Source: Modicisalibacter tunisiensis
GTDB taxonomy: Bacteria; Pseudomonadota; Gammaproteobacteria; Pseudomonadales; Halomonadaceae
Assembly (NCBI RefSeq): GCF_020148005.1
Contig: NZ_JAGXFD010000001.1
Coordinates: forward strand, 1,012,729 to 1,076,728
DNA length: 64,000 nucleotides
Direction of reading: 5' to 3'
Shown here piece by piece: positions 7,666 to 53,968 of this stretch; the stretch's first letter is position 1, and each line of letters opens with the position of its first letter. The translations under genes were made by a program, and so were the position numbers. Under the pieces are notes generated by a model. The model saw nothing but the letters and a program-made list of their open reading frames with translations, was not told where the DNA came from and did no database searches.

Positions 7666-7825
7666 ATGGTGATAGCCGTGGTTCGATGTAAGGATCCTGG
7701 TGTGGGCACGACTCAATGCGGGAGCCTCGGCGATTCGGGCATCCTGCCCGGGGCATGGGGCAGGCTGGGGTCGCGTCATGCCGCGTCAACGCCCATGACC
7801 AGTCGGTCAACATAAGGGGAAGCGA

Positions 7826-9973
7826 TTGAAACAGTATCGTGTGGTGATTCTTGGCGTGGTTTTGGTGGCGATCGTGGCCTTCTTTGCGTGGGGGTTCGAC
7901 GATTACCTCACGCTCGAGTCCATCAAGTCGCTGCAAGGGCGGTTCGATCAGTGGTTCTCGGACTCTCCCTGGCTGGTCGCCGGTGGTTTCTTCCTCGTCT
8001 ATGTCCTGATCGCCGCGCTCTCGCTACCGGGTGCCACGCTGCTCACTCTGCTGGGTGGGGCACTGTTCGGCCTGGGCTGGGGGTTCCTGATCATCTCCTT
8101 CGCGAGCACGATTGGTGCCACACTGGCCTTTCTGGTCTCCCGGACCCTGTTCCGGGAGTTGATCGAGCGTCGCTTCGCGCGGCAGATCGAGACGATCAAC
8201 CGGGGCATCGAGCGCGACGGGGCGTTGTATCTGTTCAGCCTGCGCCTGGTGCCGATCTTCCCGTTCTTCGTCGTCAATCTGGTGATGGGCCTGACCCGGC
8301 TGCGCACCTCGGTGTTCTATGTCGCCAGCCAGATCGGCATGATCCCCGGCACTCTGGTCTACGTGAATGCCGGCCAGCAACTCGGCGAACTGCAATCGCT
8401 GGGAGGTGTCGTGTCGCCGTCGCTGCTGCTCTCCTTCGCCCTGCTGGGCGTCTTCCCGCTGATCGCGCGTTGGATCGTCGACGCCCTGCAACGCCGCAAG
8501 CGCTACCGGGGGTATTCCAAGCCTCGGCACTTCGATTACGACATTTTAGTGATCGGCGGTGGCTCGGCAGGGCTCGTGACCAGCTACATCGCCAGCGCGG
8601 TGCGGGCGAAGGTCGCGCTGGTCGAGCGCGACGCCATGGGGGGCGACTGCCTCAATACCGGCTGCGTGCCTTCCAAGGCGCTGATTCGCGCCGCGCGAGC
8701 CGCCCAGGACATTCGCGATGCCGAGCGACTGGGCGTCCATGCGGGGGCGCCGCGAATCGACTTCGGCGAGGTCATGGGCCATGTGCGGCGCGTCATCGAG
8801 GAGGTGGCGCCCCATGACAGCGAGGAACGCTATACCGGACTGGGGGTCGAGGTTAAACGCGGTAAGGCGCGGCTGTATTCCCCATGGACGGTCGATGTCG
8901 ACGGCCAGCCACTGACGGCCCGGCATATCGTCATCGCCACCGGGGCCACGCCCAGGGTGCCACCAATCCCGGGCATCGAGCAGATCGAGGTGCTGACCTC
9001 CGAGAACCTGTGGACGTTGACCGAGCAGCCGCGCCGCCTGGTGGTGCTGGGCGGCGGCGCCATCGGCTGCGAACTCGGCCAGAGCTTCGCCCGCCTGGGC
9101 AGCCAGGTCACGCTGGTCGAGGGGGCCGAGCGGCTGCTGGGGCGCGAGGATGACGAGGTCGGGGAACTCGTCGCCGGCCTGCTTGCCGAGGAAGGCCTCG
9201 AGATCATGACCGGTACCCGGGCGCTTGCGGTGACGGTCGAGAACGGCGGGAACCAGCTTCTGGTCGAGGCGGCCGACGGAAAGCAGACCCGCATTCCCTT
9301 CGACCGTCTGCTGGTCAGTGTCGGTCGCCAGGCCAACGTCGAGGGGCTCGGGCTGGAAGCGCTGGGGATCGCCACTCGCGACAACGGCACCCTGGAGGTC
9401 AACGAGCAGCTACAGACCAGGCTGCCCAACATCTGGGCCTGCGGCGATGTCGCCGGCCCTTATCAGTTGACCCACGCCGCCGCGCACCAGGCCTGGCATG
9501 TTGCCGTCAACGCCCTGTTCGGCGAGTTCAAGCGCTTCAAGGTCGACTACCGCATCATGCCCGCGGTGACGTACCTGCAACCCGAAGTGGCCCGCGTGGG
9601 GCTCAACGAGCGCGAGGCCAAAGCCCAGGGCATAGCCTACGAGGTCACCCGTTACGAGATGGCCGAGAGCGACCGGGCGATCGCCGAGCGCGCCACCACC
9701 GGCTTCGTCAAGATCCTCACCGTGCCCGGCAAGGACCGCATCCTCGGTGCCACCCTGGTCGGCGAAAACGCCGGTGAATGGCTGGCGGAGGTGACGCTGG
9801 CCATGAAGCACAACATCGGACTCAACAAACTGCTCGGCACGATTCATCCCTACCCGACCCTCTCGGAAGCCGTCAAGGGCACCGCCGGCGTGTGGAAGAA
9901 CGCCCACAAGCCCGAGCGGGTGCTTGGTTGGCTAGCATGTTATTTCCGGTGGCGACGTGGAGGGCGTGATTGA
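7826..9973 (+). CDS. DedA/TVP38-FAD-dependent oxidoreductase fusion
   Basis: A 715-residue two-part protein. Residues 1-225 are a TVP38/TMEM64 (SNARE-associated, DedA-like) membrane domain with several hydrophobic segments and the F.G...G motif region LTLLGGALFGLGWG. Residues 235-705 are a class I pyridine nucleotide-disulfide oxidoreductase. It has the FAD-binding DILVIGGGSAGLV, the redox-active GGDCLNTGCVPSKAL, the NAD-binding RLVVLGGGAIGCELGQ, the second FAD motif ACGDVAGPYQLTHAA, and a dimerisation domain ending HPYPTLSEA. It resembles mercuric reductase/dihydrolipoamide dehydrogenase, but the substrate is unknown. The start is TTG, chosen because AAGGGGA lies five bases upstream and hydrophobic sequence begins at once. 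Confidence 0.85.
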   Translation: MKQYRVVILGVVLVAIVAFFAWGFDDYLTLESIKSLQGRFDQWFSDSPWLVAGGFFLVYVLIAALSLPGATLLTLLGGALFGLGWGFLIISFASTIGATLAFLVSRTLFRELIERRFARQIETINRGIERDGALYLFSLRLVPIFPFFVVNLVMGLTRLRTSVFYVASQIGMIPGTLVYVNAGQQLGELQSLGGVVSPSLLLSFALLGVFPLIARWIVDALQRRKRYRGYSKPRHFDYDILVIGGGSAGLVTSYIASAVRAKVALVERDAMGGDCLNTGCVPSKALIRAARAAQDIRDAERLGVHAGAPRIDFGEVMGHVRRVIEEVAPHDSEERYTGLGVEVKRGKARLYSPWTVDVDGQPLTARHIVIATGATPRVPPIPGIEQIEVLTSENLWTLTEQPRRLVVLGGGAIGCELGQSFARLGSQVTLVEGAERLLGREDDEVGELVAGLLAEEGLEIMTGTRALAVTVENGGNQLLVEAADGKQTRIPFDRLLVSVGRQANVEGLGLEALGIATRDNGTLEVNEQLQTRLPNIWACGDVAGPYQLTHAAAHQAWHVAVNALFGEFKRFKVDYRIMPAVTYLQPEVARVGLNEREAKAQGIAYEVTRYEMAESDRAIAERATTGFVKILTVPGKDRILGATLVGENAGEWLAEVTLAMKHNIGLNKLLGTIHPYPTLSEAVKGTAGVWKNAHKPERVLGWLACYFRWRRGGRD

Positions 9974-43393: not shown

Positions 43394-46300
43394 TTTACAA
43401 GCCGCCTGCTCGGCGGTGAACGTGGCGGTGTAGCCGACCTTCGAGTCGACGTATTTCTAAGCCGCCTGCTCGGCGGTGAACTCAAGGAAGGCGGCGAGGT
43501 TGCCGGCATCATCTTTCTAAGCCGCCTGCTCGGCGGTGAACCGGGCCGTGTGGCCGCACCGCTTCCCGACGCTTTTCTAAGCCGCCTGCTCGGCGGTGAA
43601 CGTGGTGGTGACGCTGGCTCTGATCATGGGGGTTTTCTAAGCCGCCTGCTCGGCGGTGAACGACCCGCTCAAGGAAGTCACCGCCGATCTGATTTTCTAA
43701 GCCGCCTGCTCGGCGGTGAACGACCCGGCTTCGCGCACGGCTTCGTGACTCCATTTCTAAGCCGCCTGCTCGGCGGTGAACACGGTACTGGCCCACCTGC
43801 CCGACGAGAGCCATTTTCTAAGCCGCCTGCTCGGCGGTGAACCCCTTGCCGACCGGGCCTGTCACAATCGCCTTTTTCTAAGCCGCCTGCTCGGCGGTGA
43901 ACAACGCCGTCCGCAACAACGCCTACGCCGCCAATTTCTAAGCCGCCTGCTCGGCGGTGAACCTGGTGGTGGGCCGGCTGGAACGACTGCGAGCTTTCTA
44001 AGCCGCCTGCTCGGCGGTGAACAAGGGGCTGCTGACCAACGGCCAGATCGCGGGATTTCTAAGCCGCCTGCTCGGCGGTGAACGCCGATGGCATCCGGCT
44101 GCCGGGGCAGGGCAATTTCTAAGCCGCCTGCTCGGCGGTGAACAACTGGATGTACGGCAGGCCCTGACTATCGGTTTTCTAAGCCGCCTGCTCGGCGGTG
44201 AACTCAATGTCGAGAAGACCATGGAAGCCTCGCGCTTTCTAAGCCGCCTGCTCGGCGGTGAACGCGACGCCGCTGACGTTGCGGTTCGTCGCGTATTTCT
44301 AAGCCGCCTGCTCGGCGGTGAACGATGCGTTGCAGATGAGCGTCCAGCGTCTGCATTTCTAAGCCGCCTGCTCGGCGGTGAACTCGATCTCAGCGACACC
44401 AGCGGCATCGAGGTCTTTCTAAGCCGCCTGCTCGGCGGTGAACTTCGACGACGCCGACCTGGAGACTGTTGTCATTTTCTAAGCCGCCTGCTCGGCGGTG
44501 AACGATCGCGCTGATCTACCGCTACACCGCGGCATTTTCTAAGCCGCCTGCTCGGCGGTGAACCTCGCCTTCAACATCGCCGACGCCCCCTTCGATTTCT
44601 AAGCCGCCTGCTCGGCGGTGAACCCTGGCCGACGTCAACCGCCAGCTCGCCGACTTTTCTAAGCCGCCTGCTCGGCGGTGAACAGCGCCTTCGACGAGGC
44701 ATTGGCGGCCGTCAATTTCTAAGCCGCCTGCTCGGCGGTGAACGAGAGACGATCGAGATCTACGACTGGGGCACTTTTCTAAGCCGCCTGCTCGGCGGTG
44801 AACTCGGCCGACCCGATGGTGCGCGATGCCGACGCTTTCTAAGCCGCCTGCTCGGCGGTGAACGAGCCCAGTGAGGTATTGCGCCACGATTTCGATTTCT
44901 AAGCCGCCTGCTCGGCGGTGAACGTGTCGGCCTCGCCGAACTACTCCACCGAGCCTTTCTAAGCCGCCTGCTCGGCGGTGAACACATTGCTGCTGACCGA
45001 CCCGAAGCCGCTCGATTTCTAAGCCGCCTGCTCGGCGGTGAACGTCGGTCAGCATGTGCCCCAGGCGCTGGGCGATTTCTAAGCCGCCTGCTCGGCGGTG
45101 AACGACAAGGACACCCTCGAAGGGCGCGTTCAGTGTTTCTAAGCCGCCTGCTCGGCGGTGAACAACTTCACGCCCGAGCAATTCGCCGCGCTCCATTTCT
45201 AAGCCGCCTGCTCGGCGGTGAACCCGGACAGACCGTGAAGGGCGCCACCGGCCGCTTTCTAAGCCGCCTGCTCGGCGGTGAACGCCTGGACCTGGGCCGA
45301 AGAGTCAGCGATCTGTTTCTAAGCCGCCTGCTCGGCGGTGAACAGCAGGTCTATAACGGCGTTACCGATGGCTTTTTTCTAAGCCGCCTGCTCGGCGGTG
45401 AACGTCGGGGCGAGCACCGGTCAGCGCCTCGTACTTTTCTAAGCCGCCTGCTCGGCGGTGAACCTTAGTGTTGCGGTTGGTTTTCTGCTGCTCACTTTCT
45501 AAGCCGCCTGCTCGGCGGTGAACCGCCGGTGCTGAACCCGCCGGCACCGGCGAAGTTTCTAAGCCGCCTGCTCGGCGGTGAACAAAGTGGCGGCGGATTC
45601 CTGGGCGTCGATGTTTTTCTAAGCCGCCTGCTCGGCGGTGAACATCATCCACGCCTACACCACACGGCAGATTACTTTCTAAGCCGCCTGCTCGGCGGTG
45701 AACCAGCCGCAAGTCAGCCAAAGCATTCGCCGGCATTTCTAAGCCGCCTGCTCGGCGGTGAACGTAACGATCAGCGGGGGTGGCAATGCCGAAATTTTCT
45801 AAGCCGCCTGCTCGGCGGTGAACTGAATCCAAGCGTAGCTGCTGGAGAACTCAGTTTTCTAAGCCGCCTGCTCGGCGGTGAACGGTCAGCGCGGTCGAGC
45901 TGATATGCAGTTCAATTTCTAAGCCGCCTGCTCGGCGGTGAACGCTGCTGGCGATCGACTGGATCGCGCCGAAGTTTTCTAAGCCGCCTGCTCGGCGGTG
46001 AACGCCCGAGCACTGCGACGTCTGGCCCGAACACTTTTCTAAGCCGCCTGCTCGGCGGTGAACACCTGGTACTTGGGCAGCTTCGTTTTGATCTCTTTCT
46101 AAGCCGCCTGCTCGGCGGTGAACGAAATCATCCCGACTCCAATCCGGCCCGCCCATTTCTAAGCCGCCTGCTCGGCGGTGAACGCCGTGCCCCACTCCGT
46201 GGCGACGTTGCCCTGTTTCTAAGCCGCCTGCTCGGCGGTGAACTCCGAGAGCGGCGCCGCAATGATCCGGTGTATTTTCTAAGCCGCCTGCTCGGCGGTG

Positions 46301-47023
46301 AACGTCGACATACGGCTGGGCCATCACGGTCAGCTTTTCTAAGCCGCCTGCTCGGCGGTGAACAGCCGGCCGTCGATCGAGCCCATCGCGTCCCATTTCT
46401 AAGCCGCCTGCTCGGCGGTGAACCGGCATCCGCATCTACCACGAAGCCCAGGCATTTTCTAAGCCGCCTGCTCGGCGGTGAACGAGATGGACAGCGATGG
46501 CCACAAGATCAGCCATTTCTAAGCCGCCTGCTCGGCGGTGAACTGCCGCTCACTCGAGCGGCTTTTTTCGGCATATTTCTAAGCCGCCTGCTCGGCGGTG
46601 AACGATCTCATCTGGCGCCGCTAGGGTTTCGGGTCTTTCTAAGCCGCCTGCTCGGCGGTGAACGCGGACTCCTTGCAGGCCCCTGCGAACTATCATTTCT
46701 AAGCCGCCTGCTCGGCGGTGAACACGCAGCAGGCGCGCAGGATGTTCAGGGCGAATTTCTAAGCCGCCTGCTCGGCGGTGAACCGCCGCAAGCCGGAAGG
46801 CGAGCATCTCGACCATTTCTAAGCCGCCTGCTCGGCGGTGAACGTCGGCGACGAGGGGGTGATCCAGATCGTCGATTTCTAAGCCGCCTGCTCGGCGGTG
46901 AACTTGGCCTGCGTGTAACACGTCTTGCTGATCTCTTTCTAAGCCGCCTGCTCGGCGGTGAACTGTGCTGCGTGACCCGCGACATCGATGCCGATTTTCT
47001 AAGCCGCCTGCTCGGCGGTGAAC
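43394..47023 (-). CRISPR. Type I-F CRISPR array, 61 repeats and 60 spacers
   Basis: The 28-base repeat reads on the plus strand TTTCTAAGCC, then GCCTGCT, then CGGCGGTGAAC. The reverse strand starts GTTCACCGCC and ends CTTAGAAA, the canonical I-F form with a CCGCC/GGCGG hairpin and an 8-base handle. The repeats I could align read identical, except the leftmost (43394-43421), which has two changes (TTTACAAG). Spacers are 32 bases, with two of 33 (before 43815 and 44056). The degenerate end at 43394 and the adjoining cas6f show that the leader is at the right end and transcription runs on the minus strand, after the cas operon. Confidence 0.98.
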
Positions 47024-47164: not shown

Positions 47165-47722
47165 TTACGTGATGTCAGGCAAGGGCACCGGATTTGTCGT
47201 GGTGGAGAGCCCCCAGGAGTCGGGGGTCGATTCCCGTACCTTCGGCTCGCTGCCCGTGTAGGGCTGTACTGACCAGTAAAGCCGGAACCGTCCCCCGTTA
47301 CTGTCGCTTTTCATCTGGAAGAAGGGGAGCTCCCGGGCATTGGCCTCCTGGACTCGCTTGAGGCGCACCGAGCGTCCCGGGATACGCTCCGCACGCCGCG
47401 AGGGAATGCGAAACCTCTGGTAGATGCTCCATGAGCCGGCGTAGTCCTCTGGTACCGAGCGGGGGTAGTGGATGACTGCCTGCTCGAGCAAGGAAGGAGC
47501 CTCTCGAATATTGGCAATCAGCGCATCGAGTTCATCGCGCCCCGAAGCAAACACCCGCAGTACCGAATGTGCCAGCCGTGCATGACTGGGCATGGCCAGT
47601 GCATGACGCCCCGGTGCCTGGCGAAAGGCACCGTGCAGCACGCGCACGATGGCTGAAGCGGCCATCGGGCGAGGAAGTGGCTGGGGGCGGACTTCGATAT
47701 CACAGAACCATCTGGGCTGCAT
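47165..47722 (-). CDS. cas6f: CRISPR-associated endoribonuclease Cas6f (Csy4)
   Basis: A 185-residue repeat-processing RNase that should cleave below the CCGCC/GGCGG hairpin and stay bound to the crRNA 3' end. The N-terminus FCDIEVRPQPLP matches the Csy4 opening, and FFQMKSDSNGGRFRLYW matches the conserved arginine strand. The C-terminal WGLST is the family end motif. The catalytic His, at residue 29 of Pseudomonas Csy4, is probably His30 in RVLHGAF, a form I recall from Tn7-linked I-F3 Cas6 proteins. The start is the ATG four bases after the cas7f stop; an upstream start would overlap cas7f. Confidence 0.9.
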   Translation of the reverse strand: MQPRWFCDIEVRPQPLPRPMAASAIVRVLHGAFRQAPGRHALAMPSHARLAHSVLRVFASGRDELDALIANIREAPSLLEQAVIHYPRSVPEDYAGSWSIYQRFRIPSRRAERIPGRSVRLKRVQEANARELPFFQMKSDSNGGRFRLYWSVQPYTGSEPKVRESTPDSWGLSTTTNPVPLPDIT

Positions 47723-47726
47723 CGGC

Positions 47727-48758
47727 TTACTCCTTGGAGCCAGAGTAGACGCCACCCCGCATCAGCGCCGAGATCATGAACATGCCATCGGCACTGTCCG
47801 GGTCCAGTTCGTCCAGACGCAGGGCAATCTTGAACGCCGAAGCCGCGCCGTCGCGGAAGAAGCGTTGTGCGCCCAGGTTGGCGCCGTTCGGCTCCACGGC
47901 GATGGGCTGGCCGTGTTCCTCGTAAGCGGGATACCAGGTGTCGATGGTGCGAAGGGCATTGCTGATCTTCTGGTCACGCAGTGCCGCTTGCCCCATTACC
48001 TTAATACCCACTTCACCGGCTCCACTCGAGCGCCTGCGGACTTCGCCGCCGCGAACGTAATAGAGCGGTCGGGCAAATCCCTTCGGCTTGCGCTCGACGT
48101 AGTTCTGGGAGGGAAATACCTCCAGAGCCCCGGTGACGCCGAAGTCGATCCGGGCCTCGACGGTCAGTCGAGAAGTGGATTGTCCCGCCATGCTGGCGGC
48201 GATCAGGGCGCCCAGCGCTTTCTCGTCATCGCTGTATGCCTCGAAGTGATTCAGCGGAACCGCGAGTGCCGGGAAGGTGGCGAGAGTCTCGCCATCACGC
48301 GCCACGGCTACCTCGATGGACTCGGCCAGCTGGCGGTTGCGCCATAGCCAGCGACCATTGGCAATGTTGCGTGCAAAGCGCCGCCCGACCTCCTGCAAAC
48401 CCTCGGAGCTCTTGGCCTGGGCGATGAAGTTCAGCAGGGTCTGGCGATAGCCGGCGACATCGTCCTTGCCGCCCTTGCTGCTGGCACAGGCGAATATCAC
48501 ATCCTTCAGATCGAGGAAGTTGAGGCCGAAGCTGACGCTCATGCCCCTGGCCTCGGGGTCGAGCTTGGCCGTTTCGGTCTGCTGGATGTTCGATACATCA
48601 TCGAACTTGTCGGGGATGTTCTGGGTACCACGAATGCCATGGCGGATCACCTCGACGGGCGAGCGCTTGCTGTCCGCCAGCAGGTTTTCAAACACCGCGT
48701 CGGTAATCATCAGGCCCCGGGTCAATGAAAGGACGCCGGGCAGTTTGTTGAAAGCCAT
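47727..48758 (-). CDS. cas7f: CRISPR-associated backbone protein Cas7f (Csy3)
   Basis: A 343-residue RAMP protein forming the six-subunit backbone along the crRNA spacer. It has RGTQN in the web/thumb region, RRFARNIANGRWLWRNR, ALEVFPSQ, and ALRTIDTWYP...PIAVEP, which parallel Pseudomonas Csy3. Length is normal. AGGAG lies six bases upstream of the chosen ATG. Longer readings start inside cas5f. It sits between cas5f and cas6f in the usual order. Confidence 0.93.
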   Translation of the reverse strand: MAFNKLPGVLSLTRGLMITDAVFENLLADSKRSPVEVIRHGIRGTQNIPDKFDDVSNIQQTETAKLDPEARGMSVSFGLNFLDLKDVIFACASSKGGKDDVAGYRQTLLNFIAQAKSSEGLQEVGRRFARNIANGRWLWRNRQLAESIEVAVARDGETLATFPALAVPLNHFEAYSDDEKALGALIAASMAGQSTSRLTVEARIDFGVTGALEVFPSQNYVERKPKGFARPLYYVRGGEVRRRSSGAGEVGIKVMGQAALRDQKISNALRTIDTWYPAYEEHGQPIAVEPNGANLGAQRFFRDGAASAFKIALRLDELDPDSADGMFMISALMRGGVYSGSKE

Positions 48759-48796
48759 GGTGGATCTCCTGTGAGTGGCAGGGCGGAAAGAGCGGG

Positions 48797-49684
48797 TCAG
48801 CCGATGGATTCCGGATGGCATTGCACGACAAAGGTGTGCGAGTCGAGCCAGTGCTGGCGCCAGTACGGAACCTGTTTATTCAATTGCCGAGCCGGGACGT
48901 ACTGAACCATGCCTAGCAGGGGTTCGGCGTAGGCGTGCAGGGTGTGCTGGAGCGTGCTGTCGTTCGGTTGCATCTGCAGGCGGACACCTTCGCGCTCGGC
49001 AAAGTCGGTGATGGCCAGGTAGCCCAGCACGGTCGGCACGACCCAGGCATGGGAAACCTCGTGGAGTGGCCGGTTGTGGAGTTCGGGGGTCTTGGATTGC
49101 AAGCTCTCGGCTCGCTGGGCAGGGAGCGCGTTGCGTTCGATGGCAGCGAATGTCGAGCCCAGCGGATCGGTTTCGTCGATCAGGTCGGGACGTTCGATCA
49201 GCCAGAAGCCGTTGTCGCCCAGGCTGCGGATGGCCGTATTGACGTCATCGACGTTTATCGGTGTCCGATAATCGAGGAGTTGCCCGCCGGCGAGGCGAGC
49301 CTTGCGCAGGAAGGGGAGCAGCATCGATTCATCGAGCAGTCCCTCGTACTCGATCAGTAACGACAGTTCGAGATTGCAGCTGGCGGTGGGTTGAGCAGAC
49401 AGCGTAGGGCCCTTGGTGCCCTTGCCGACATAGTCCTGTTCATTGACCAGCAGGGCGCTGCGCCGTTGATGGGGGAGAACGTCATAGGCGACATCCTCGA
49501 GGGCCTGGTGTTCGGCATGATGGTGCCGAACCGCGACCCCAAGGACGTCACACTCGAGATGCCGGACCATCAGGTTATGGACGAACTGGGTGATCGCCAT
49601 CACAGGGCTGGCATTGACGATGAAGCCGCAGGCCAGGGCGTTGGCGGATTGCACCTTGAGGTGAGGCAACACCAGAAAGCTCAT
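48797..49684 (-). CDS. cas5f: CRISPR-associated protein Cas5f (Csy2)
   Basis: A 295-residue RAMP protein that pairs with Cas8f at the crRNA 5' handle. It has the Csy2-like opening FLVLPHLKVQSANALACGFIVNASPVMAITQFVHNL, then CNLELSLLIEYEG and the C-terminal HAWVVPTVLGYLAITDF. The ATG overlaps the cas8f stop (ATGA), so the two are translationally coupled and remain separate, unlike the fused Cas8/5 of Tn7-linked I-F3. Confidence 0.9.
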   Translation of the reverse strand: MSFLVLPHLKVQSANALACGFIVNASPVMAITQFVHNLMVRHLECDVLGVAVRHHHAEHQALEDVAYDVLPHQRRSALLVNEQDYVGKGTKGPTLSAQPTASCNLELSLLIEYEGLLDESMLLPFLRKARLAGGQLLDYRTPINVDDVNTAIRSLGDNGFWLIERPDLIDETDPLGSTFAAIERNALPAQRAESLQSKTPELHNRPLHEVSHAWVVPTVLGYLAITDFAEREGVRLQMQPNDSTLQHTLHAYAEPLLGMVQYVPARQLNKQVPYWRQHWLDSHTFVVQCHPESIG

Positions 49685-50850
49685 GGGAGGGCCTCCTCGA
49701 TGCGATTCTCGATACGTACCAGCCATGCCCTGTCGAAGCCGGGGCGACCTTGCCGGGTCTCGTCCGGATAGCGGTAATCCTTGATGGATTGTGCCAACAG
49801 GCTGGAAAGTGCCTGGCGCCAGGCGCGATCTCGAAGGCCAGGCTCCAGCAGCCCTTGCTGCACCCGGGGCAGGTGGCGCCACAGGTCGATGGGCTCATCT
49901 TCGGCCGGCTGATCCGTTGTCGCGTCGTCCGGCTTGGCAGCTGTCGTTTCCTGAACCAGGATTTTCTGAGCCTCGTGTCGTGCGTGATCAGCGCGGTGCA
50001 GCAGACTGCTCATCAGTCGGTCGATGAACCGGTCGACCAACTCGCGGGTCCGCAGGTTGGACGGTAATTCACCGCCTTCGCGCACCAACAGGGGCACCAG
50101 GGTATCGCGCAGTTCCGTCATGATCGTGCGGTTGAGCAGTGGCCATACCCCGCGGTAGGCGGCCAGATACTGCTCTCGCACACTCCGGTTGTCGCGAGGG
50201 GCCGAGAAAAACAGGGGATATTGCACCAAGCCCCGGTTAGGCAGACGGCCGATGTTCTGGGCGTTATCGCCCCCGAAGCCGAGATAGGCCGTGCGTAGCC
50301 GTCGAATGACGGGGTGATCCGGGTCACCCTCATCGTTGTCCTTGGCTTCACGCCAGCGTTCGAGGTTGGCCTGGGTGCGCTCGCGCACGGTGGCCGTCAG
50401 GCCGCTGCTGGTGATCGGGGTAATCGCCACGTAGCCGCCGTCGTCACGGGGAAGGAACAGCTGGCGCACGCGTGGCGATACCTTCCCCATGCCGGTTACC
50501 CACGGCTCGCGGCTGGCTTGCCGGTAGAGCGCCCGGATGAGCGCCACATCGTCGGGATCGGCGTCGTCTGGGAGCTGCCCGGTCAATACCTGATCGACCT
50601 GCTTGGCGATGGTGGCTGCAGGCCCTGAGTTGGTGAGGTAATCCAGTGGCAGGGGGCAGCCGGAAGCGAGTACCGAGGAGGCGCAGAGATAGCGAAGCGG
50701 GCGTGTATCAGTCGTGCTCAGGCGGATGCCGACCGCCTTGGCGTTGGAGTTGATGGTCTTCGTGGAAAAGTGCACGAGGCGAAAGATGGCCTCACGATAC
50801 TGGTCCGTTGTGAACGGTTTCCACTCCGGCGGGGATGATGACTTGGCCAT
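49681..50850 (-). CDS. cas8f: CRISPR-associated large subunit Cas8f (Csy1)
   Basis: A 389-residue PAM-recognising subunit, somewhat shorter than Pseudomonas Csy1 (434). The diagnostic GG..AQNIG.L motif is present (YLGFGGDNAQNIGRLPNRG), followed by LVQYPLFFSAP. The C-terminal helical part ends RQGRPGFDRAWLVRIENRIEEAL. It is the first gene of the minus-strand effector operon. Its promoter lies in the 300-base gap to cas3 and overlaps the protospacer of the mini-CRISPR RNA described below. Confidence 0.9.
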   Translation of the reverse strand: MAKSSSPPEWKPFTTDQYREAIFRLVHFSTKTINSNAKAVGIRLSTTDTRPLRYLCASSVLASGCPLPLDYLTNSGPAATIAKQVDQVLTGQLPDDADPDDVALIRALYRQASREPWVTGMGKVSPRVRQLFLPRDDGGYVAITPITSSGLTATVRERTQANLERWREAKDNDEGDPDHPVIRRLRTAYLGFGGDNAQNIGRLPNRGLVQYPLFFSAPRDNRSVREQYLAAYRGVWPLLNRTIMTELRDTLVPLLVREGGELPSNLRTRELVDRFIDRLMSSLLHRADHARHEAQKILVQETTAAKPDDATTDQPAEDEPIDLWRHLPRVQQGLLEPGLRDRAWRQALSSLLAQSIKDYRYPDETRQGRPGFDRAWLVRIENRIEEALP

Positions 50851-50881
50851 GGGGGTTCCCGTTGATTATGTACTAATCTTA

Positions 50882-50910
50882 ATTTAGCCAAGTTACTTTT
50901 TACTATTCAA
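50882..50910 (-). promoter_or_regulatory. Putative cas8f operon promoter
   Basis: On the minus strand TTGAAT (50910-50905) and CTAAAT (50887-50882) are separated by 17 bases, about 32 bases upstream of the cas8f ATG. The -35 box and spacer lie inside the protospacer. On the plus strand TACTAT at 50901-50906 could be the -10 for cas3, so both promoters may share this site. Boxes are assigned by eye. Confidence 0.45.
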
Positions 50911-50919
50911 ATAAAAAGG
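50891..50919 (-). other. Self protospacer with CC PAM for the mini-CRISPR guide
   Basis: On the minus strand CC (50919-50918) is followed by TTTTTATTTGAATAGTAAAA and seven more bases. It matches the mini-CRISPR spacer at positions 1-5, 7, 8, 10, 11, 13-17, 19, 20 and 22. The match ends at 22; positions 23-27 do not pair. CC is the known I-F PAM. Confidence 0.8.
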
Positions 50920-50944
50920 AAAAAAATTTGACATGCGCCATGTC
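50920..50944 (-). terminator. Terminator of the mini-CRISPR RNA
   Basis: On the minus strand GACATG-GCG-CATGTC (50944-50930) is followed by AAA and seven T residues ending at 50920. It separates the mini-CRISPR transcript from the cas8f promoter. Confidence 0.6.
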
Positions 50945-51080
50945 GAACTTCCCTATCTCCTTGTTGGAAGCGGGAAAACGTGTCGAGGAATCCGCCTGCG
51001 CGGCGGTGAAGGACGCCGTTGTACTACTCGAACAAAAATTTCTAAGCCAGCGGGAAATCAGGCTGCTGGTTCAGGGCGTC
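50920..51080 (-). ncRNA. One-spacer mini-CRISPR (CreR-like cas autorepressor RNA)
   Basis: Reading on the minus strand: a degenerate first repeat (51069-51039) keeps a CCAGC/GCTGG stem and the exact handle CTTAGAAA. A 27-base spacer follows (51038-51012). The second repeat (51011-50984) agrees with the array repeat at 20 of its first 23 bases and retains the CCGCC/GGCGG hairpin. A Cas6f-processed product would be 8-base handle, 27-base guide and 3' hairpin, as in a normal crRNA. An extended -10 promoter lies upstream and a hairpin plus T7 downstream. The guide matches the cas8f promoter. CreR RNAs of other subtypes have this design. Function is inferred. Confidence 0.8.
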
Positions 51081-51155
51081 AGGGAGACTATAGCAAAACT
51101 CCACCACACGAGATCTCGAGACATACATGAGGACGGGGGAGAGAAACGACAATGA
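50928..51155 (+). CDS. Possible small helical protein coupled to cas3
   Basis: An open frame of 75 residues from a TTG start (71 from the ATG at 50940). AAGGA lies seven bases before the TTG. The stop overlaps the cas3 ATG (ATGA), as in coupled genes, and the product would be amphipathic (LLEAGKRVEESACAAVKD, then VVLLEQKFLSQREIRLLVQG). It resembles no Cas2 sequence. Much of it is antisense to the mini-CRISPR, whose repeat dictates residues SACAAVK, so the frame may be accidental. Confidence 0.3.
   Translation: MTCAMSNFPISLLEAGKRVEESACAAVKDAVVLLEQKFLSQREIRLLVQGVRETIAKLHHTRSRDIHEDGGEKRQ
51087..51095 (-). promoter_or_regulatory. Extended -10 promoter of the mini-CRISPR RNA
   Basis: The minus strand reads TGCTATAGT, a complete extended -10 element (TG-N-TATAGT). 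There is no good -35. The start point would be near 51080, some 10 bases before the first degenerate repeat. Confidence 0.6.
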
Positions 51156-53968
51156 CTGCGAGTTGCCAAGCCGATGCCGAACCTGCCGGAATCGGGACGA
51201 CTCTGGAGCTGGCCAGCCTGATAGCCGGCGTCGCTGGACGATCTCACGATCTGGGCAAGGCCGGGAGCTATTTCGTCGAAAAGCTGCAACATGCCGCCGC
51301 CGGCCATGACACCGAGCCGGATCCGGTTCGCCATGAGTGGGTGTCGATGAAGGCCCTGGAGAGGATGCTCCAGGGAATACCGCTTCACGAGGCGCTGGGG
51401 AAGCTGCCCCTGATCAGCCTGGCGGAAGGGCCCTCGCTCGGCGATGGCGTGCGTAGTGCCGGCGAGGGATTGCGCTATATCTGTGCGACCCACCATCGCC
51501 TGTTCGGACCGCCATGTACCTCCCGGACACAGGCCTTGACCAGGCTGGATGCCTCGAATCACGTCCGCGAGCCAGTGCCCCCGTTTACCTATCCCGTCAG
51601 CGCTGACAAGCGGCTCACCCCCTCATTTACCCGTAGGCTCGAGCAGGATTTGCGGAGGCTGCTGGCGGTTGCTGGCGAGTCGCCGGATGACGAGCCTTTC
51701 TGGTATGGACTGGTCTGGCTGTCCCGGGTGGCATTGATCCTCGCCGATCAGGGTGTCTCGGCCGATATCGTCGGTGCGGAAGATGGCGCCGGTGGACGCG
51801 AGGCCATTCCACCGAATGCGCCTGGCCTCTATGCCAATACCTGGCCGAGGCATGCCGAGATGACCGGTCGCGGCTACAACCAGCCACTGGAATGGCACTT
51901 GAGCACTGTCGCGGAGAAGGCGTCTGAGGTGGCTGGCGCCATGTGGCGGATGTCATTGCCGGCGCTTGAGCCCGGCCAGGTCGATGATCTCCTTGCGCCC
52001 GCACAGGGCCACCATGTCCGGTACTTTGGCTGGCAGGACGAGGCCGTGGAGGCCATCCGCCAGCATCGGGAAGCGTCCGCGGCCCCTCTTCTGGTGTTCA
52101 ATGTTGCCAGCACTGGCGCCGGCAAGACGGTCATGAACGTCAAGGCGGCCTGCGCCGCGGCATCGGGCCCGCTACGACTATCGTATGCACTCAACCTGCG
52201 CACATTGACCCTGCAGACGGGGGACGCCCTGGAGAGGGACCTGGGGCTGGGTCGGGAGAGCGTCGCCACGGTAATCGGTGACAAGGTTGCCGTTCGCCTG
52301 CACGAGACGGAACAGACGGCGGCTGATCCACAGGATGCCGCGCTCGATGCAGCCGGTGTCTTCGAGGACGTGCAGTTCGAGGTGGCCGGGGGCATCAGCC
52401 GGCTGCCCGACTGGCTGGCACCGGTCACCGAGAGGCGGACCGAGTGGCGGAGCATCCTGGCGAGTCCGGTCCTGGTGTCGACGGTGGACTTTCTCGTGCA
52501 GGCAGGAGAGCCGGGGCGTCAGGGTCACCATGCCGCCGCTTATCTGCGTGTGATGCACAGCGACCTGATTCTGGATGAAGTCGACAGCTACGATACGGAG
52601 AGCCTGGTCGCCATCCTGCGCCTCATCCAGGTAGCTGCTTCCCTGGGCCGCAACGTGGTCTGCTCGTCGGCGACACTGCCTCAACCCATCGCCCACGCCA
52701 TTGCCGAGGCTTATCACTCAGGGCATCGCGTCTGGTCTGCGCTGTGTGGTCAGGCGCAAGAGCATGGTGTCCTGGCCATAACGGATACCTTGCCGCCCAG
52801 CTGGATTCAGCCTGGCGCCTCTTTTCAAGAGGACTACCAGACGTTTCTCGGTGCGCTTGGTGGTCGGCGGGGCCCGGCTACTAAGCGGGCCTGCCTGCAA
52901 TCGGTGGATGACAACAGAGGAGTTGCGGGCCTGTTTGCCGCCATCGAGGCCGGCGTGGAACGGCTGCATGCGTCAAATTGCTGGTCGCATGGCGATACCG
53001 GCAAGTCGGTCTCGTTTGGTCTGGTCCGGGTCGCCAATATCCAGACGGCCAATGCGGTGGCGGAGTATCTGCAGCGCCTGCCCGACACCTTCGTGTGTCT
53101 GTACCACGCTCGGGATTTCGCGATTCAGCGGCACTCCAAGGAGCGTGCGCTGGATCGTCTACTCAATCGCAAGCGGGGCAACGAGGCCATCGAACAGGAT
53201 CCGGACGTCGGTGCCCTCTGTGCTGCCACAGAGGGCTCTTGCGTGCGCTTCGTGGTCGTCGCCACGCCGGTCGAGGAGATCGGCCGCGACCATGATTTCG
53301 ACTGGGCGGTAATCGAGCCATCGGGATCTCACTCGATCGTCCAGACCGCGGGGCGTGTCAATCGCCATCGCCGGATAGCGGTGACCGAGCCGAATGTGGC
53401 GGTTCTGCAATACAACGCCCGGGCCCTGCGCAAGGAGAGCGTGGCATTTACCCGTCCCGGTCCGGAAAGCGGCAGGGGCTTTCGCAAGTATCTCGATGCA
53501 GGGGATGCGTATCCTGATCTTGGGTATCTGCTCGACTGGGATAGGCTCGATCGGCTGACCGCCGCCATGGCCTTCGATACGGCCCACCCGCTGGTGAAGG
53601 GGGAGCAGCATCACCAGCAAGCGTTGCTGAAGGAGCCCCTGAAAGTCCTCAGGCGTGATCGCCGGTATGAAAGCATCTGGATGGGCAGTCGGTTCTACGG
53701 AAAATATCCGCTGCGCAGCAAGGAGGATGACGGTCTGGAAGAGTGGCGGGTCTTGCCAAGAGAGGGCGGCGGCAGGCGCTGGGAACGATGGGAACGGCAC
53801 GGCTTCACCTTGGCGTATACCGAACAGGGCAAGCCGCGGCTCGATATGCACGAAACCAACTGGCTGTCATGGAGCATCGAGGCGCTGTGGGAGGCATGTG
53901 ACAAGGCGGGAATCACGCCCGAGCAGGGAATGACCTTCAAGATAAGACGGTCGTCCGGCCAAGTGTAG
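51152..53968 (+). CDS. cas3: CRISPR-associated nuclease-helicase Cas3, lacking a Cas2 domain
   Basis: A 938-residue HD nuclease-helicase that degrades targets marked by the Cas8f complex. HD motifs are RSHDLGK (His32-Asp33), RHEW (His61) and THHRL (His114-His115). The helicase has STGAGKT (Lys325), LILDEVDSYD (Asp475-Asp478), CSSATLPQP and QTAGRVNRHR (from 731). I-F Cas3 is normally about 1,100 residues with an N-terminal Cas2 domain, which is absent here, and no cas1 gene flanks it. GGGGGAG precedes the ATG. It is divergent from cas8f. Confidence 0.93.
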   Translation: MTASCQADAEPAGIGTTLELASLIAGVAGRSHDLGKAGSYFVEKLQHAAAGHDTEPDPVRHEWVSMKALERMLQGIPLHEALGKLPLISLAEGPSLGDGVRSAGEGLRYICATHHRLFGPPCTSRTQALTRLDASNHVREPVPPFTYPVSADKRLTPSFTRRLEQDLRRLLAVAGESPDDEPFWYGLVWLSRVALILADQGVSADIVGAEDGAGGREAIPPNAPGLYANTWPRHAEMTGRGYNQPLEWHLSTVAEKASEVAGAMWRMSLPALEPGQVDDLLAPAQGHHVRYFGWQDEAVEAIRQHREASAAPLLVFNVASTGAGKTVMNVKAACAAASGPLRLSYALNLRTLTLQTGDALERDLGLGRESVATVIGDKVAVRLHETEQTAADPQDAALDAAGVFEDVQFEVAGGISRLPDWLAPVTERRTEWRSILASPVLVSTVDFLVQAGEPGRQGHHAAAYLRVMHSDLILDEVDSYDTESLVAILRLIQVAASLGRNVVCSSATLPQPIAHAIAEAYHSGHRVWSALCGQAQEHGVLAITDTLPPSWIQPGASFQEDYQTFLGALGGRRGPATKRACLQSVDDNRGVAGLFAAIEAGVERLHASNCWSHGDTGKSVSFGLVRVANIQTANAVAEYLQRLPDTFVCLYHARDFAIQRHSKERALDRLLNRKRGNEAIEQDPDVGALCAATEGSCVRFVVVATPVEEIGRDHDFDWAVIEPSGSHSIVQTAGRVNRHRRIAVTEPNVAVLQYNARALRKESVAFTRPGPESGRGFRKYLDAGDAYPDLGYLLDWDRLDRLTAAMAFDTAHPLVKGEQHHQQALLKEPLKVLRRDRRYESIWMGSRFYGKYPLRSKEDDGLEEWRVLPREGGGRRWERWERHGFTLAYTEQGKPRLDMHETNWLSWSIEALWEACDKAGITPEQGMTFKIRRSSGQV

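Follow-up and report, generated by a model that had tools for sequence, protein, structure and literature searches.

In a type I-F CRISPR-Cas locus of Modicisalibacter tunisiensis, cas8f and cas3 are separated by a gap of 301 nt that contains a degenerate type I-F mini-array with a single spacer, lying on the minus strand, and the spacer partly matches the DNA just ahead of cas8f itself. This unit very probably gives rise to a CreR-type, cas-regulating guide RNA that would park the Csy complex on the cas8f promoter without cutting it. Feedback switches of this type are already known, and the reading of the unit as a new, type I-F example is well supported by the sequence and by a comparison of related loci.

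The window, that is, the whole stretch of 64,000 nt that was analysed, belongs to a genome of 3.55 Mb in eight contigs, which shares its family with Halomonas sp. SpR8. Its cas operon is encoded on the minus strand in the order cas8f-cas5f-cas7f-cas6f, followed by an array of 61 repeats, while cas3 lies on the plus strand. The features of the locus are the following (window coordinates):
43394 to 47023, minus: CRISPR array of 61 repeats and 60 spacers by repeat scan (Rfam lists 60 repeats)
47165 to 47755, minus: cas6f (csy4), NCBIfam match under the cut-off, named with PADLOC
47727 to 48821, minus: cas7f (csy3), NCBIfam match of 245 bits against a cut-off of 157.55
48797 to 49882, minus: cas5f (csy2) open reading frame, NCBIfam match under the cut-off, named with PADLOC; the true start is probably further inside
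49681 to 50850, minus: cas8f (csy1), short variant of 389 aa, named by PADLOC and Pfam
50881 to 50910, minus: putative cas8f promoter, read by eye
50896 to 50919, minus: CC PAM (50919-50918) with the adjoining 22 nt of the target over which the spacer pairs, from sequence, shuffles and a genome scan
50920 to 50944, minus: terminator-like hairpin (50944-50930; z -1.61) with a run of seven T
50984 to 51011, minus: second degenerate repeat, CCGCC/GGCGG stem intact
50992 to 51046, minus: predicted mature crRNA-like guide of 55 nt, deduced from I-F crRNA anatomy
51012 to 51038, minus: spacer of 27 nt
51039 to 51074, minus: first degenerate repeat, CCAGC/GCTGG stem and then handle (hairpin z -2.26)
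51087 to 51095, minus: extended -10 element TGCTATAGT, read by eye, from which the mini-array is probably transcribed
51152 to 53968, plus: cas3f, 938 aa, without an N-terminal Cas2 domain, NCBIfam match under the cut-off

An effector of Cas8f, Cas5f, Cas7f and Cas6f together with repeats of 28 nt places the system in type I-F. The first-pass annotation of this DNA had made the same assignment, and it holds, with Cas7f above the NCBIfam cut-off and Cas8f named by PADLOC and Pfam; in NCBIfam, Cas8f has no match. Subtype I-F1 is defined by cas1f and by the fusion of Cas2 with Cas3, and the window system has neither. No Cas1f above the cut-off is found in the genome, the best match (44.5 bits against a cut-off of 150) being the Cas1 of another locus; SpR8, for comparison, has a true Cas1f of 513.9 bits. 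Cas3 lacks the Cas2 domain in the window and likewise in SpR8 and Pseudomonas silesiensis. Rare I-F variants are mentioned in a classification of 2025, and the short-Cas8f variant of the window could be matched to none of those named in its available part (PMC12669027). The array repeat (minus sense) is GTTCACCGCCGAGCAGGCGGCTTAGAAA and is identical in 60 of the 61 copies; such a near-uniform array looks like a memory that is intact in a system carrying no adaptation genes. The only Cas1 match of the genome belongs to a second CRISPR locus, roughly 70 kb away (G000:C1:1133272-1136562). This locus is read by eye as type I-E from Cas6e-, Cas1- and Cas2-like open reading frames and from its repeats, Cas1 alone being confirmed by a family search.

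The anatomy of the mini-array is largely as it had been annotated before. Two degraded repeats indeed flank the 27-nt spacer, and the handle of the first repeat, at 51046-51039, is an exact copy of the 8-nt CTTAGAAA. Both hairpin stems, CCAGC/GCTGG and CCGCC/GGCGG, are kept as well, with the qualification that the perfect stem of the first repeat (51069-51047) encloses a loop of 13 nt instead of 5, which is unusual for a Cas6f substrate. In the second repeat, the 3' handle has decayed (ATTCCTCG). The span from 51046 to 50992, 55 nt in agreement with the annotation, is made up of an 8-nt handle, the 27-nt spacer and a 20-nt stem-loop; the predicted guide would start with CUUAGAAA at 51046. Scored against the array repeat, the second repeat reaches 18, a score that none of 200 gap shuffles attains, the highest among them being 13. 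The first repeat scores 10, with the handle alone aligning, and this is reached by 17 of 200 gap shuffles.

The signals that surround the unit are less distinct. The extended -10 element that had been assigned to it is readable by eye at 51095-51087, but a scan for -35/-10 consensus sequences detects no promoter in the mini-array/cas8f upstream region. The putative cas8f promoter consists of TTGAAT (50910-50905), 18 nt and TAAATT (50886-50881), with 8 of 12 consensus bases, a score under the threshold of the scan. The hairpin with seven T, which had been regarded as the unit's own terminator, is present, but one terminator-like site was found where 0.8 are expected in shuffles of the region. 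Neither the putative 156-nt mini-array transcript (z -0.22) nor the 55-nt guide (z 0.65) folds better than its shuffles.

The plus strand of the same gap contains an open reading frame of 75 codons (50928-51155), the stop of which overlaps the cas3 start in an ATGA. It could be imagined that this small-protein gene is the actual content of the gap and that the mini-array is secondary or coincidental. The overlap would suit such a gene, as would the GC minimum at second codon positions. An open reading frame of this length, however, occurs in 76 of 500 shuffles, and its codon score of -0.08 falls below the minimum of 0.07 for equal-sized stretches of cas3, a score for which it should be kept in mind that the real gene cas6f attains just 0.05. 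Searches of Pfam, PADLOC, plasmids and phages give nothing for the product, and its PHROGs match is at chance level (E 0.29). It is unlikely that the frame is a gene, and since the promoter match of the spacer goes far beyond chance, an explanation of the gap by a small protein is extremely improbable.

That promoter match is the central observation. The protospacer starts at 50917, directly beside the CC PAM, on the same strand as cas8f and 67 nt upstream of its start codon. Seventeen of the first 22 spacer positions pair, with mismatches at 6, 9, 12, 18 and 21, while positions 23-27 are unpaired; the target covers the putative -35 element (TTGAAT) of cas8f. The claim that the spacer matches the cas8f promoter beside a CC PAM is therefore borne out for the PAM and for 17 of 22 positions, though not for the last five, and the promoter elements are those read by eye. 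For the statistics, CC-flanked sites were scored over the first 17 positions with 6 and 12 left unscored, which gives 15 scored positions. The promoter site matches at 14 of these, and none of 20000 shuffled spacers does as well in the gap. It is the best of the 43 CC sites in the gap, where the runner-up has 6/15; over the same 17 positions, the runner-up among the 12184 CC sites of the whole window has 10/15. When only the first 11 positions are considered, the match is less striking: it is equalled by 39 of 20000 shuffles, and one of the 60 array spacers also reaches 9/10 in the gap. Over the first 17 positions, the best array spacer attains 12/15 in the gap, but the site that it matches there lies in the second repeat instead of the promoter. 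A scan of the whole genome with CC plus the first 17 bases, two positions being open and at most two mismatches allowed, finds two places, one being the promoter site and the other the spacer.

A type I-F precedent exists for a guide in this position. In Acinetobacter, as described in the available text of PMC10097628, Csy represses transcription under the guidance of a degenerate mini-array, creA, that lies between cas3 and csy1. This has been tested experimentally, and the target of creA is not a cas gene but the toxin RNA gene creT. The CreA RNA is built of 8 + 20 + 20 nt with a 20-nt spacer and a CC PAM, and it needs Csy but not Cas1 or Cas3 (PMC10097628). The window unit resembles this CreTA system in its subtype, its place in the cas3-csy1 gap, its two palindromic degenerate repeats, its short spacer, the CC PAM and the mismatches at positions 6 and 18. 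It differs in being directed at the cas8f promoter instead of creT, in a spacer of 27 instead of 20 nt, and in a mismatch at position 9, which must pair in CreA. The precedent, found in the very same gap, raises the question whether the window unit is the CreA of a CreTA-like addiction module, its guide repressing a toxin or cargo gene in the gap and cas8f being affected by neighbourhood. The related locus on a plasmid of Acinetobacter sp. ANC 7974 would fit such an arrangement, as its spacer matches upstream of a 105-aa KilAC-domain open reading frame, 562 nt before cas8f. In the window, on the contrary, the target is only those 67 nt ahead of the cas8f start on the same strand, and the sole same-strand open reading frame of at least 20 aa that starts in between (50718-50891, 57 aa) is almost wholly inside cas8f. 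Judged by open reading frames of at least 20 aa, no toxin gene is seen at the target; a small toxic RNA without an open reading frame may lie downstream of it. Altogether, an addiction module seems very unlikely in the window.

The reading of the unit as an autorepressor is backed by a comparison of 13 loci of the short-Cas8f variant, and we regard it as well supported at the level of sequence comparison. The set comprises the window, Halomonas sp. SpR8 (L014, the same as L022), plasmids of Allochromatium tepidum (L023), A. baumannii (L024), Acinetobacter sp. ANC 7974 (L025) and P. silesiensis (L026), three loci (L027-L029) from the genomes G421, G472 and G481, and four IMG/VR contigs (L058, L059, L060 and L063). 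Cas8f measures about 355-390 aa in most of them; the frames are 420 aa in L059 and 474 aa in L028, and L029 carries part of cas8f only. In L059, cas3 and cas8f have the same direction.

A unit of two repeats and one spacer lies in the cas3/cas8f gap of four of the 13 loci, namely the window, Allochromatium, ANC 7974 and L058. Their spacers (27, 20, 20 and 24 nt, respectively) are unrelated in sequence, and each finds its best CC-flanked match in its own gap at 14, 12, 13 and 12 of 15 positions, while no spacer exceeds 8/15 in the gap of another locus. Such a co-variation of spacer and gap was what the first-pass annotation had proposed to look for in related genomes. The own-gap matches are equalled by 0, 18, 5 and 9 per 20000 shuffles in the same order; the Allochromatium match is weaker with 20 positions scored (152/20000). 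The target starts about 67, 43 and 94 nt upstream of cas8f in the window, Allochromatium and L058, and about 562 nt upstream in ANC 7974, ahead of the KilAC-domain open reading frame in the gap. This region of the ANC 7974 plasmid (8281-8865), with its 20-nt-spacer mini-array and KilAC-domain frame, may be a CreTA- or CrePA-like cargo. The L058 unit was spotted by eye before scoring, and 11 of 200 shuffles equal the score of its first repeat taken alone; since there is no array on this contig piece, borrowed I-F repeats served for the scoring.

The handles of the four units differ in their conservation. The outer one, at the 3' end of the second repeat and absent from the predicted mature guide, deviates from the I-F handle in all four loci. 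The inner one is identical to that of the array in the window, one base off in Allochromatium and ANC 7974, and changed in L058 (TTGAGAGT), the locus that offers no array for comparison. A changed outer handle with a kept inner handle is the pattern that selection on a handle-spacer-hairpin RNA would leave.

Nine of the 13 loci have no such one-spacer unit. SpR8, the nearest relative (Cas8f 66% identical), is among them: its cas3-cas8f gap has a few tens of bases only, and no exact handle occurs outside its array within 19 kb. Its short-Cas8f locus has cas8f, cas3 and an array with the same repeat as the window. Relatives in which the handle and hairpin decay while the cas locus remains intact had been named beforehand as evidence against the autorepressor, and SpR8, without the unit in a short gap, goes part of the way. 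In L024 and L060, the gap contains an ordinary array, and a mini-array is absent from the 278 nt upstream of cas8f. In L028, the called frames overlap and nothing is found in the 121 nt scanned; nor is anything found in the 628 nt scanned in L029, where an assumed I-F repeat was used as there is no array on the stretch. WYL-domain open reading frames occupy the cas3/cas8f gap in L027 (6747-7640) and L063 (7887-8780), the latter just under the Pfam cut-off.

The gap of the P. silesiensis plasmid is of a different kind: some 16 I-F repeats, all strongly diverged, follow one another there at uneven distances of 44-114 nt (7720-8690). One of the 16 units matches upstream of cas8f with mismatches at 6, 12, 15, 16 and 17 of the first 17 positions. 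A match of this quality is obtained in 15 of 2000 trials with all units shuffled, and in 77 of 10000 for this spacer alone with all positions counted, a figure uncorrected for the 16 units. This is suggestive, and the unit may be a guide with a regulatory role within an array that is otherwise decaying; it was left out of the four units counted above.

The mismatches themselves are not evenly distributed. In the Csy guide, every sixth base is flipped, so that mismatches are expected to gather at multiples of six. Within the first 17 positions of the four loci, positions 6 and 12 are mismatched in 5/8 cases, compared with 9/60 elsewhere (Fisher p 0.007), and with the P. silesiensis unit added the numbers become 7/10 and 12/75 (p 0.0008). 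Over 20 positions and five loci, sixth positions are mismatched in 8/15 and the others in 17/85 (p 0.01). Since leaving the sixth positions unscored could bias this test, the sites were chosen again with every position counted, and the same four sites win. The I-F CreA of Acinetobacter has mismatches at 6, 11 and 18, and its function was lost as soon as one pair in the ranges 2-5, 7-9 and 13-17 was broken (PMC10097628). All four units have mismatches in these sensitive ranges: at 9 in the window, at 8, 16 and 17 in Allochromatium, at 17 in ANC 7974 and at 14 in L058. Either this variant is more tolerant, or the longer pairing in the window compensates, or some of the guides are weak or inactive.

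For the window, the mismatch at position 9 slightly lowers the probability of a CreR-type guide and slightly raises that of a dead remnant. Such a remnant would be the decayed end of an array, or a spacer taken by accident from the genome's own DNA, with a promoter match left from its capture. The degenerate repeats, the absence of the unit from SpR8, the intolerance of Acinetobacter CreA at this position (PMC10097628) and the P. silesiensis gap, which illustrates that long arrays can decay there, all agree with a remnant. Nevertheless, the decay appears non-random, with the handle of repeat 1 and the stem of repeat 2 exact and the parts outside the guide altered. Furthermore, an own-gap match and an altered outer handle recur in four loci, and the mismatches prefer sixth positions. 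A remnant is for these reasons considered unlikely, and a CreR-type guide remains the preferred reading.

The autorepression may be envisaged as follows. The mini-array would be transcribed from its own promoter and the transcript cut by Cas6f into the 55-nt guide, which would then join a Csy complex whose backbone is shortened. Directed by the guide, this complex would settle on the -35 region of cas8f and block RNA polymerase there. As pairing ends after about 22 positions, the R-loop would be too short to trigger Cas3, and the target is predicted to be bound without being cut, which is a reasonable assumption. According to the available text on a type I-F1 system, R-loops of at most 26 bp form yet leave Cas2/3 untriggered, far-end mismatches likewise keep Cas2/3 off, and shortened complexes still form R-loops; the backbone size follows L = 6N - 4, with natural steps of 20 and 26 nt (PMC7296934). 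Two of the four spacers are exactly 20 nt, while those of 24 and 27 nt are off these steps. The proposed relief, by competing crRNAs or by loss of Csy, is adopted from the account of CreR in the available part of a review (PMC12737573): with plentiful ordinary crRNAs or a disabled Csy, the guide would lose its complex and expression of cas8f-cas5f-cas7f-cas6f would rise. The whole could thus behave as a feedback thermostat on the cas operon.

How far this arrangement is new should be judged against what is already published. Shmakov 2023 reportedly catalogued mini-arrays in which an isolated pair of repeats carries a spacer directed at a cas8 promoter, and reportedly tested one of type I-F1; these mini-arrays would be of the same kind as the window unit. 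The literature matches listed, which do not extend to that catalogue, include no I-F case directed at cas8f. SpyCas9 is said to repress itself by means of a natural single guide, the long form of its tracrRNA. In this case a natural guide directs a Cas effector against the effector's own promoter, as would happen in the window; the SpyCas9 system, however, is of class 2 and its guide is derived from a tracrRNA without a mini-array, whereas the window unit is a mini-array.

The available text of PMC13131331 also states the self-repression of SpyCas9, and it reports CreR autorepression for types I-B, I-E and V-A. The window unit shares with CreR that two degenerate repeats surround one spacer inside a cas locus, that this spacer is partly complementary to a putative cas promoter beside the PAM of the subtype (CC), and that the proposed autorepression would depend on Cascade. 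As to a toxin gene under the targeted promoter, none is seen in the window among open reading frames of at least 20 aa, and a toxic RNA without a frame may exist there. It differs from the published CreR cases in belonging to type I-F, in the short-Cas8f variant (PMC13131331). The suggestion in the first-pass annotation that the arrangement may be undescribed was too strong, in view of the Acinetobacter I-F system (PMC10097628) and of CreR (PMC13131331). Racrs, the RNA anti-CRISPRs of phages, are isolated repeat-like units outside arrays (PMC10651486). They are virus-borne and consist of a solitary repeat, while the window unit has two repeats and a guide in a host cas locus. Degeneration of repeats has been put forward, in the available part of PMC9458426, as a source of specificity and stability.

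If the CreR reading is true, a defence complex probably throttles its own production. The unit adds a type I-F case, with independent examples, to the RNA-guided self-control of CRISPR effectors, and the device is present in a system without its own adaptation genes. The clustering of mismatches at sixth positions constitutes a signature by which regulatory guides might be recognised in a sequence ahead of any experiment. As a speculative and rather doubtful extension, the cas3/cas8f gap of the short-Cas8f lineage could be a regulatory slot that is refilled repeatedly. CreR units that track the promoters of their own loci, regulators of the WYL type and array units drawn into regulation would be its occupants; after loss of cas1f and Cas2, the memory would be frozen and guide feedback would be the main control left.

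The short-Cas8f variant itself seems to be sparsely distributed. The gap DNA has four records among plasmids, all short (E 0.3-0.9), and none among phages, so that no relative of the element was found in either. The Cas8f protein has no match in phages; in plasmids, it matches four records, an identical set for all four Cas8f queries. A contig scan with Cas8f yields Halomonas sp. SpR8 only. In a family sample, Cas8f is found in 4 of 250 genomes (the own genome, SpR8 and two weak matches), and at the level of genera in 1 of 14 (own genus, the own genome) and 1 of 82 (that of SpR8, SpR8 itself); the order of G481 has 1 of 4. The PADLOC family PDLC01425 matches 4 of 369 class genomes, the own genome included. 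A profile of seven Cas8f proteins detects 10 of 369 class genomes and 9 of 398 phylum genomes, of which four and one are strong, including the own genome. The weak profile matches (6 in the class and 8 in the phylum, best E 2e-9, frames of 412-577 aa) were left out as ordinary Cas8f by length, as were the loci L015 and L016. Finally, Halomonas sp. SpR8 harbours two I-F systems (L014 and G217:C27:165868-170138), one being the short-Cas8f variant and the other having a full Cas2-Cas3 and Cas1f.
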